Shown here: one piece after another, positions 33,079-35,199 of the stretch
Position numbering within the stretch: position 1 is the stretch's first letter
How the letters are laid out: each line of letters opens with the position of its first letter
Notes under the pieces: model-generated
Database searches by the model: none
Told to the model about the DNA's origin: nothing
The model's input: the letters and a program-made list of their open reading frames with translations, nothing else
Assembly (NCBI GenBank): GCA_904395905.1
Contig: CAJFNZ010000103.1
Span: forward strand, 1-53,320
Length of the DNA stretch: 53,320 nucleotides
Origin: an uncultured Oscillospiraceae bacterium
Lineage (GTDB): Bacteria > Bacillota > Clostridia > Oscillospirales > Oscillospiraceae
Reading direction: 5' to 3'
Made by a program: the position numbers and the translations under genes

Positions 33079-33990
33079 ATGACGGACTATGACATTCTGA
33101 TTATCGGCGCGGGGCCGGCCGGCCTGACGGCGGCGGTCTACGGCCTGCGGGCCGGCTACCGGGTGCTGGTGCTGGAGGGCCAGGCCCCCGGCGGCCAGCT
33201 GATGCTGACGCCGGAGGTGGAGAACTACCCCTCCTGGCAGAAGATTTCCGGCTGGGAGCTGGCGTCGAAGATTGCCGGCCAGGCGGAGGCGGCCGGGGCG
33301 GAGCTCCGCGCCGAAGCGGTCACCGGGCTGGAGCTGGACGGCGAGGACCGGGTGGTCGTCACCGAGCAGGGCCGGTACCGGTGCCGGGCGGTCATCCTGG
33401 CCAACGGCGCCAAGCGGCGGAAGCTGGGCTGCCCCGGCGAGGCGGCGCTGACCGGCCGGGGCGTCAGCTACTGCGCCGTCTGCGACGGGGCGTTCTTCCG
33501 GAACCGCACCGTCTGCGTGGTGGGCGGCGGCAACACGGCCCTGGAGGACGCGCTGTACCTGGCGCGGATCTGCGAAAAGGTCTACGTGATTCACCGGCGG
33601 GACAGCTTCCGGGGCGAACGGCGGCTGGCCGAGGCGGTGTGCTCGTCGGAGAAGATCTCGGTCCTCTGGAACACGGCGGTCACGTCCATCGAGGGGGATG
33701 GCCGGGTGGAGCGGGTGCGCCTCTCCGACGGCGGAAGCCTGGAGGTGTCCGGCGTCTTCGTGGCCATCGGCCTGGAGCCGGATAACGGCCCCTTCCGCGG
33801 CGTGGTGCCGCTGGATGCGGGCGGCTACGTGCAGGCCGGCGAGGACTGCCGGACCGGCGTGCCCCGGATCTACGCCGCTGGCGACACCCGGACGAAGGAG
33901 GTCCGGCAGATTCTCACGGCCGCCGCCGACGGCGCCGTGGCCGCCACCCTGGCCGCCGCCGAGTTGGAGGCCGCGGACTTCGGCGGCTGA
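33079..33990 (+). CDS. trxB: Thioredoxin reductase-like NAD(P)/FAD flavoprotein
   Basis: IIGAGPAGLTAAVYGLRAGYRVLVLEG, VSYCAVCDGAFFRNRTVCVVGGGNTALEDALYL, GVPRIYAAGDTRTKEVRQILTAAADGAVAA; CxxC active site (CAVC). Confidence 0.94.
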   Translation: MTDYDILIIGAGPAGLTAAVYGLRAGYRVLVLEGQAPGGQLMLTPEVENYPSWQKISGWELASKIAGQAEAAGAELRAEAVTGLELDGEDRVVVTEQGRYRCRAVILANGAKRRKLGCPGEAALTGRGVSYCAVCDGAFFRNRTVCVVGGGNTALEDALYLARICEKVYVIHRRDSFRGERRLAEAVCSSEKISVLWNTAVTSIEGDGRVERVRLSDGGSLEVSGVFVAIGLEPDNGPFRGVVPLDAGGYVQAGEDCRTGVPRIYAAGDTRTKEVRQILTAAADGAVAATLAAAELEAADFGG

Positions 33991-34054
33991 CGCCGGGGCG
34001 GGACGTTTGCGGGAGGAGGCGGAATCCATCGTGGGGAAGCGCAACGAAGTGCGG

Positions 34055-34129
34055 CTCCATGCAAAGCCAGCAGGTTGCGACGGTTGCATGGAGTAAGGGA
34101 CGGTCGCAACATTGGGATGCCGGCTTTGC
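34055..34129 (+). promoter_or_regulatory. Nested inverted repeats (possible structured leader or operator) upstream of CD3324-like gene
   Basis: ctccatgcaa(34055-64)/ttgcatggag(34084-93); gttgcgac(34074-81)/gtcgcaac(34103-110); gcaaagcc(34061-68)/ggctttgc(34122-129). Confidence 0.55.
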
Positions 34130-34161
34130 TGCTTGACACACGTTGCAAGGAGGAAGCCCCC

Positions 34162-34425
34162 ATGAAGCATCTCAACGCCGGGGCCCTTCTCCCCGAGGCG
34201 CTGGTCAAGGAGCTCCAGAGCTACGTGCAGGGCGCGTATCTCTACGTTCCCACCGACCGGGCGCGGCGCAAGGAGTGGGGAGAGGTGTCCGGCTACCGGC
34301 AGGAGCTGCGGCGGCGGAACCGGGCCATCGTTGAGGCGTACCGGCACGGGGTCTCGATGGACGCCCTGGCCGAAGCGCACGGCCTGTCCGTATCTGCCAT
34401 CCGGAAAATCATCTATCAGAAATAA
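34162..34425 (+). CDS. CD3324-family / Mor-like HTH protein
   Basis: MKHLNAGALLPEALVKELQSYVQGAYLYVPTDRARRKEWGEVSGYRQELRRRNRAIVEAYRHGVSMDALAEAHGLSVSAIRKIIYQK; SD aaggagg. Confidence 0.85.
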   Translation: MKHLNAGALLPEALVKELQSYVQGAYLYVPTDRARRKEWGEVSGYRQELRRRNRAIVEAYRHGVSMDALAEAHGLSVSAIRKIIYQK

Positions 34426-34566
34426 ATGGCGGGGGCCATGCGGCCCCCGCTTTTTGCGTTCTGATTTTGGATACCGTTTGATTCGGAGCCGTTCGGTGGA
34501 TGGCACCCGGGCCGGGGCGGTGGTACCATGGAGGGGACAAAACCAGACGATGGGAGCGAAGCCGCC

Positions 34567-35199
34567 ATGAATCCGAACACCGTATACCCCCGGCGCAACG
34601 ACCGGAACACCGTCTACCTGAAGGCCGTCGTCCGAGACCCCGGCATCACCGTCGGGGACTACACCATGTACCACGACGTCGCCCGCGACCCGCGGCAGTT
34701 TGAACGGAACAACGTCCTCTACCGCTACCCCGTCAACCGGGACCGGCTGGTGATTGGCAAGTTCTGCTCGATTGCCTCCGGGGTGCGGTTCCTGTTCACC
34801 GCCGCCCACCACGCGCTGGGCTCCCTGTCCACGTATCCGTTCCCCATCTTCTTTGAGGAATGGGGCCTGCGGGGCGAGGACGTCACCGCGGCGTGGGACC
34901 GGCGGGGCGACCTCGTCATCGGAAACGACGTCTGGATTGGCTACGAGGCCGTCCTCTTCTCCGGCGTCACCGTCGGGGACGGGGCCATCATCGGCGCCCG
35001 GGCCGTCGTGACGAAGGACGTGCCGCCCTATGCCGTCGTCGGAGGCGTCCCCGCGCGGATCCTCCGCTACCGGTTCCCCGACGACGTCATCGCGGCCCTG
35101 CTGCGCCTCCGGTGGTGGGACTGGCCCGAGGCGCGGATCCGGGCGCACCTGGCAGATCTGCAGGCCGGGCGGCTCCAAGACCTGACAGCTTGCGAATAG
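34567..35199 (+). CDS. CatB/Vat-related left-handed beta-helix O-acetyltransferase
   Basis: VGDYTMYHDVARDPRQFERNNVLYRYPVNRDRLVIGKFCSIASGVRFLFTAAHHALGSLSTYPFPIF...VIGNDVWIGYEAVLFSGVTVGDGAIIGARAVVTKDVPPYAVVGGVPARI hexapeptide repeats. Confidence 0.93.
   Translation: MNPNTVYPRRNDRNTVYLKAVVRDPGITVGDYTMYHDVARDPRQFERNNVLYRYPVNRDRLVIGKFCSIASGVRFLFTAAHHALGSLSTYPFPIFFEEWGLRGEDVTAAWDRRGDLVIGNDVWIGYEAVLFSGVTVGDGAIIGARAVVTKDVPPYAVVGGVPARILRYRFPDDVIAALLRLRWWDWPEARIRAHLADLQAGRLQDLTACE

Follow-up and report, generated by a model that had tools for sequence, protein, structure and literature searches.

INTRODUCTION

Leader RNAs that respond to antibiotics combine a limited number of elements. In attenuators of the ermC type (ermCL and relatives), an upstream open reading frame (uORF) with its own Shine-Dalgarno (SD) sequence lies before a resistance gene, and mutually exclusive helices sequester the main SD. 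The leaders of vmlR, lsaA and cplR in Bacillota also contain a uORF, alternative structures and a sequestered SD, and control genes for PLSA-resistance ABC-F proteins (PMC9226507, PMC10201436). Their published uORFs have 3-4 codons (MIN, MAGN and MR[I/M]), and the vmlR and cplR leaders carry an intrinsic terminator (PMC9226507, PMC10201436). In Actinobacteria, the drug-responsive uORF leader of whiB7/wblC controls a DNA-binding resistance regulator through a transcription terminator/antiterminator mechanism (PMC10727445). Finally, the uORFC-6-1 motif located before hflX in Bacillales is a covarying RNA with a uORF, for which a response to stalled ribosomes has been proposed (PMC8632094). The known drug-responsive leaders have mostly been described one gene at a time.

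Here, we describe a leader RNA located upstream of a CD3324-family helix-turn-helix (HTH) gene in a 53,320-nucleotide stretch of DNA from an uncultured Oscillospiraceae bacterium (hereafter the window). By analogy, this leader would work like the uORF attenuators of erm, vmlR, lsaA, cplR and whiB7, and those of vmlR, cplR and whiB7 constitute its precedent (PMC9226507, PMC10201436, PMC10727445). However, in contrast to the ermC type, its segment A has two alternative partners, its helix P2 would be present in both states, forming a pseudoknot with the off helix, and one RNA serves several unrelated gene families. It overlaps with the vmlR, lsaA and cplR group in an Lsa-type ABC-F target, whereas uORFs of 12-38 codons are usual here and a search of the window's leader revealed no terminator. 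The logic that we propose for CD3324 is that of whiB7/wblC, with an unrelated protein and in another phylum. The uORFC-6-1 motif has a different target, and its conserved Arg-Leu-Arg peptide is not a motif of the uORFs described here.

RESULTS AND DISCUSSION

Competing pairings upstream of the CD3324 gene

An earlier note on this DNA had pointed to three complements upstream of the HTH gene, and all of them are present in the window: CTCCATGCAA (34055-34064) with TTGCATGGAG (34084-34093; 10 of 10 positions paired), GTTGCGAC (34074-34081) with GTCGCAAC (34103-34110; 8 of 8) and GCAAAGCC (34061-34068) with GGCTTTGC (34122-34129; 8 of 8). The second helix (P2) can be extended to 11 nt at 91% pairing and the third (P3) to 12 nt at 92% (GCAAAGCCAGCA/TGCCGGCTTTGC). 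The topology given in the note is also correct, as the 5' arm of P2 lies within the loop of the first helix (P1) and its 3' arm beyond it, which corresponds to a pseudoknot, and the first and third complements compete for a common GCAA. Moreover, the five GTTGC/GCAAC sites that it listed were all found (34041, 34074, 34083, 34106 and 34142); this five-fold repeat is not kept in relatives. The leader comprises the following elements:

34055 to 34068, + strand: segment A (CTCCATGCAAAGCC), whose 5' part pairs with B (P1) and 3' part with C (P3)
34074 to 34081, + strand: 5' arm of P2 (GTTGCGAC), in the A-B loop, forming a pseudoknot with P1 and nested in P3
34084 to 34093, + strand: segment B (TTGCATGGAG), the 3' arm of P1
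34103 to 34110, + strand: 3' arm of P2 (GTCGCAAC)
34118 to 34129, + strand: segment C (TGCCGGCTTTGC), partner of A (P3) or of the SD region
34132 to 34135, + strand: 5' arm (CTTG) of the SD-sequestering hairpin P4, covered by the permutation test of the C flank against the SD region
34146 to 34158, + strand: 3' arm of P4 (CAAGGAGGAAGCC), which includes the SD of the CD3324 gene and can pair with C instead

Segment C reaches the SD region via GGCTTT and the CTTG located 3' of it, and in relatives the 5' arm of P4 reads CTTGA or CTTATTT. The single-sequence fold of this stretch stands out only mildly from shuffled sequences (z -2.36; 3 of 200 equally stable), so that the case for an RNA had to come from comparison. 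No Rfam 15 family reached its gathering score in the window or at the motif in eight other loci. Neither CD3324 nor the leader RNA was named in the literature searched, which covers few subscription journals.

The element precedes unrelated resistance-type genes

A DNA search of 149 relatives gave the first lead. In a same-genus genome, a match at 82% lies upstream of a CD3324 homologue with only 62% protein identity, and in an order-level relative the element precedes a GNAT gene and not CD3324; both relatives retain all arms. The one copy before a GNAT acetyltransferase gene, in L024 (G118; 1458-1547), scores 64.5 bits and has an fhs gene on its other side and no CD3324 gene. The element pattern was present in 8 of 394 genomes of the order versus 0 for a reversed control pattern. 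A relaxed A+B pattern gave at least 118 stretches in Bacillota genome contigs, mostly from Lachnospiraceae, Oscillospiraceae, Paenibacillus and Bacillus, and also from Enterococcus, Thomasclavelia and others.

Dereplication of the matches listed, with element C required, left 93 loci. About 91 of these 93 loci (among the matches listed) precede a gene for a CD3324-family HTH protein (∼71), a Mef-like MFS protein (∼17), or a Cfr or TrmH/TsnR-like methyltransferase. The script count over the 93 loci, among the matches listed, was 65 CD3324, 16 MFS, 2 Cfr and 1 TrmH; the nine leftovers, judged by eye, added six CD3324 (masked or ambiguous bases in two of them, a broken gene in one) and one MFS, and the two false positives were L058 and a reverse-strand match in the near-palindromic L060. 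The target in Lacrimispora celerecrescens (L097) is Cfr (654 bits versus a curated cut-off of 468), while the MFS targets are Mef-like at scores below the cut-off, as is the TrmH-like target, which resembles RlmB/TsnR. In the same L. celerecrescens locus, an Lsa-like ABC-F gene ends ∼55 nt 5' of segment A of the cfr leader.

A covariance model of P2 and P3, without P1, was built on 33 clostridial copies. Applied to 291 class-level genomes, it detected 12 new copies, of which nine precede MFS genes, two CD3324 genes and one an Lsa-type ABC-F gene. Five more were detected in 250 phylum-level genomes, before 4 CD3324 genes (L197 by eye) and 1 P-loop kinase gene. The kinase-like gene (MIKSNCIPKLILISGSPWVGKTTVAEALF..), in L200 (G887), is possibly an unrecognised resistance gene. 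In the reverse direction, 245 genomes were searched for Cfr at the protein level alone. A single match exceeded the cut-off, and its gene is immediately preceded by the element (58.2 bits, E 3.7e-13); the Cfr family search of the order was dominated by RlmN, with one true Cfr. The leader RNA is widespread in Bacillota and apparently undescribed.

Genomes contain one or two copies, which lie nearly always upstream of a gene, in sense with it and close to its start codon. This distribution speaks against a mobile or recombination DNA element, such as an attC-like site or a REP or MITE-like repeat, although the interleaved inverted repeats, the portability between genes and the near-palindromic copies L060 and L107 would suit one. 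No transposase link was seen, the pairing with the SD region would be left without explanation, and the probability of such an element appears negligible. Plasmid searches gave no leader copy, and the mobile cfr (L202), cfr(C) (L201) and cfr(D) (L203) genes examined are without it; chromosomal relatives still carry the leader. The start of cfr(C) in L201 lies ∼52 nt 3' of the aph(3')-IIIa gene. The element was not found in the phage search, and viral contigs gave two matches, one of them (L151) without element C.

The range of targets also bears on translational autorepression, in which the product of the main gene would bind its own mRNA at this site. The CD3324 family does stand behind ∼71 of the 93 copies (among the matches listed), but at least four unrelated protein families follow the element and CD3324 has no recognisable RNA-binding domain, making this explanation very unlikely.

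An upstream ORF runs through the structure

The earlier note mentioned neither the uORF that runs through the structure nor the link to resistance genes, and these two features changed the interpretation. In the window, the uORF is defined by:

34013 to 34021, + strand: Shine-Dalgarno-like GGAGGAGG of the uORF, from sequence reading and an SD scan
34031 to 34096, + strand: uORF with a GTG start and a TAA stop directly 3' of arm B, peptide (M)GKRNEVRLHAKPAGCDGCME followed by the stop

A uORF with an SD and a start codon, entering segment A, is present in 88 of the 93 dereplicated loci (among the matches listed), a count obtained with loose SDs and three start codons and probably including some spurious cases. 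Its stop codon lies shortly 3' of A, or at or beyond the end of B. Typical complete peptides are MCINTKKRNKAFLHAKPVDCDGCME before CD3324, MIKEFLIATHNRLHAKPDVLGDACME before Cfr, MENKDTMLTHDNLHIKPETSGDIYME before ABC-F and MLLAIASAPCKVF before MFS genes, and in Bacillales the typical peptide begins MVWVIDFVLAKLHAKS. A TH(D/N) stretch directly ahead of LH is common to the Cfr and ABC-F peptides. The reading frame is not the same across classes (LHAKP.., ..APCKV and ..SMQS). Purifying selection on the peptide is modest, with a pN/pS of 0.58 in frame 0 versus 1.02 and 0.62 in the other frames, a ratio below 1 with little frame specificity. We considered the CxxC peptide (HAKPxxCDxCME) as a metal sensor and dropped it as a general explanation because the APCKV and SMQS classes use another frame; the cysteines are also variable (L028, L107 and L146).

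The helices evolve as an RNA

Covariation was examined in the 5' regions of relatives, and P1, P2 and P3 all covary. The helices are 92-97% paired in three separate alignments (clostridial, 33 copies; MFS, 16; Bacillales, 27). Cells in which both partners had changed numbered 30 in the clostridial alignment versus 11.7 after shuffling, 14 versus 5.9 in the MFS alignment and 74 versus 25.4 in the Bacillales alignment, and in each of them 0 of 500 shuffles reached the observed number. The covariation scores were about two to four times that of the best slid structure in the three alignments. When partners were permuted between loci, P2 dropped from 18.4 to 13.2 (sd 0.27) and the A:C (P3) extension from 13.5 to 9.5 (sd 0.27). 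Similarly, when the 3' flank of C was matched to the SD region of its own locus, the score was 12.4, versus 10.8 (sd 0.20) with permuted partners; the core C:SD pairing is nearly invariant and hence outside the reach of covariation.

Segment A is invariant among the pattern matches and shows compensatory changes in the model-found copies. As P1 was fixed by the search pattern, it was tested instead in 21 copies found without the P1 pattern. These contained 6 double changes versus 2.2 expected, a value reached by 5 of 2000 shuffles, with pairs extracted by hand and relatedness ignored; examples are CTCCATATAA/TTATATGGAG, CTCCGTGCA/TGCACGGAG and CTCTATGCAA/TTGCATAGAG. In diverged leaders of CD3324 paralogues, pairing is kept while the letters change, e.g. 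GCGAC/GTCGC to GGCAATT/AATTGCC. Compensatory changes are thus found in all three helices, including the one that forms the pseudoknot. Sequence comparison shows that the element is conserved, can stand before different genes and evolves as an RNA.

These results bear on the two alternatives of the earlier note. Its undescribed switching leader RNA finds support: covariation is seen in the helices, all of the alternatives that compete are conserved, the main SD region takes part in this competition and there is no Rfam match. The other alternative, an autoregulatory DNA operator array for the CD3324/Mor-like protein, would account for inverted repeats directly 5' of an HTH protein gene. However, copies of the element also stand before MFS, Cfr, TrmH and ABC-F genes, where no CD3324 coding region intervenes, and the element sits between the uORF start and the main start. 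Moreover, base pairing is kept and the GTTGC words are not, and the compensatory changes fall in non-palindromic, interleaved helices whose arms are asymmetric as operators. We therefore consider an operator array extremely unlikely.

A proposed antibiotic-responsive translational switch

Mutually exclusive conserved helices are present, and one of them involves the main SD region. The best explanation of this leader is an antibiotic-responsive translational attenuator coupled to the uORF, to which we assign a probability of about 0.78. Three pairings compete, namely A:B (P1), A:C (P3) and C:SD region (P4), and P2 is compatible with P1, as a pseudoknot, and with P3, in which it is nested. In the resting state, A:B would be formed and C free to sequester the SD, keeping the main gene off. 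In the induced state, a drug-stalled ribosome in the uORF would cover the 5' part of A (CTCCAT), so that B loses A; the exposed GCAAAGNC would then capture C, weakening the SD hairpin and allowing translation of the main gene. Gene expression is thus probably switched on by antibiotic-induced ribosome stalling, although the switch may work in the opposite direction. A drug that targets the PTC or exit tunnel is the most likely inducer, since cfr, Lsa-type ABC-F, Mef-like MFS and rRNA-methyltransferase-like genes are among the targets and since CD3324 copies are often near a streptogramin-acetyltransferase-like gene.

Constrained folding with a pseudoknot-free model gave a mean SD openness of 0.34 with the 5' part of A masked versus 0.27 with P1 formed. 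It rose in 60 of the 82 loci, the direction that the switch model proposes (Wilcoxon p 3e-5); the effect is small, and openness was hardly altered for non-CD3324 leaders. A transcription-terminator mechanism of the vmlR, cplR and whiB7 type was dropped because no intrinsic terminator was found within the window's leader, the sole terminators being at 34426-34451.

An aptamer would offer a different account of the same structure, the RNA being a riboswitch or other ligand-sensing leader and the uORF incidental. The compact pseudoknotted fold and the near-invariant nucleotides (CTCCATGCAAAG, TTGCATGGAG and CTTTGC) are typical of aptamers, and the uORF frame varies by class. However, the invariant letters are largely accounted for by the double pairing of A with B and C, whereas P2 and the loops vary freely, leaving no conserved unpaired core. 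In addition, the targets are resistance-type and not metabolic, and 88 of the 93 loci (among the matches listed) have the uORF SD and start codon. A ligand-sensing RNA is therefore improbable.

As an attenuator, the leader would be one recognisable RNA with a covariance signature that unrelated resistance genes throughout Bacillota, gut commensals among them, have in common. The motif could also help to find uncharacterised resistance genes, by pointing to any gene that follows it.

CD3324 and its neighbours

The region downstream of the leader contains the following features:

34162 to 34425, + strand: CD3324-family (NF040785) HTH protein of 87 aa (99.4 bits, cut-off 65)
34428 to 34451, + strand: strong intrinsic terminator 3' of the CD3324 gene
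34567 to 35199, + strand: Vat/CatB-like xenobiotic acetyltransferase, streptogramin A acetyltransferase-like (NF000311, E 2.8e-62)

The window's CD3324 protein scores 18.2 bits against Mor (PF08765; gathering cut-off 24.9), and 20 of 20 aligned members of the family match PF08765 at E up to 0.1 (best 8.2e-8), which suggests a distant similarity to Mor. The Vat-like protein is below its curated cut-off (209.9 bits versus 300). This acetyltransferase is a probable functional partner of CD3324: the two genes are paired in 32 loci (among the matches listed), in either order and sometimes with one gene between them. Other CD3324 copies are flanked by TrmH-like methyltransferase, Cfr or MFS genes. 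From this gene context, it is likely that the Mor-like HTH protein of the window regulates the neighbouring resistance-type genes. Directly 5' of the leader lies a gene for a TrxB-like reductase (33079-33990; 335 bits versus a thioredoxin reductase cut-off of 343.45), and no promoter-like site was found between this gene and the leader.

More tentatively, at somewhat less than even odds, CD3324-family proteins could play in Bacillota the part that WhiB7 plays elsewhere. A common RNA that senses ribosome stalling would then drive both individual resistance genes and an HTH regulator of their neighbours, these being the Vat-like acetyltransferase, Cfr, MFS and TrmH-type methyltransferase genes. 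A likely role would thereby be assigned to the unstudied CD3324 family, and a WhiB7-like regulatory layer in Bacillota becomes testable.

In the gap between the CD3324 terminator and the Vat-like gene of L087, L092, L105, L106, L116 and L118, ACCGAA-like and GTGTATTG-like words recur at similar positions. The same words are seen by eye at ∼34470-34505 of the window, as a candidate CD3324 operator. In L072, L073, L125, L131 and L147, a second, different uORF (MKLCIALSGIVK with its stop, or similar) lies before the Vat-like gene and resembles the MKLCIA of MFS leaders. Within this second uORF, CTGGAATAGT is the complement of ACTATTCCAG, located at the start of the Vat-like gene, which makes another attenuator likely. 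Finally, the CD3324 leaders of L010, L015, L017 and L021 are unrelated in sequence and follow the same logic, with a short uORF ending in GATTGAAAG and a stop, followed by CTTTCAAT and, at the main SD, by ATTGAAAGGAG.
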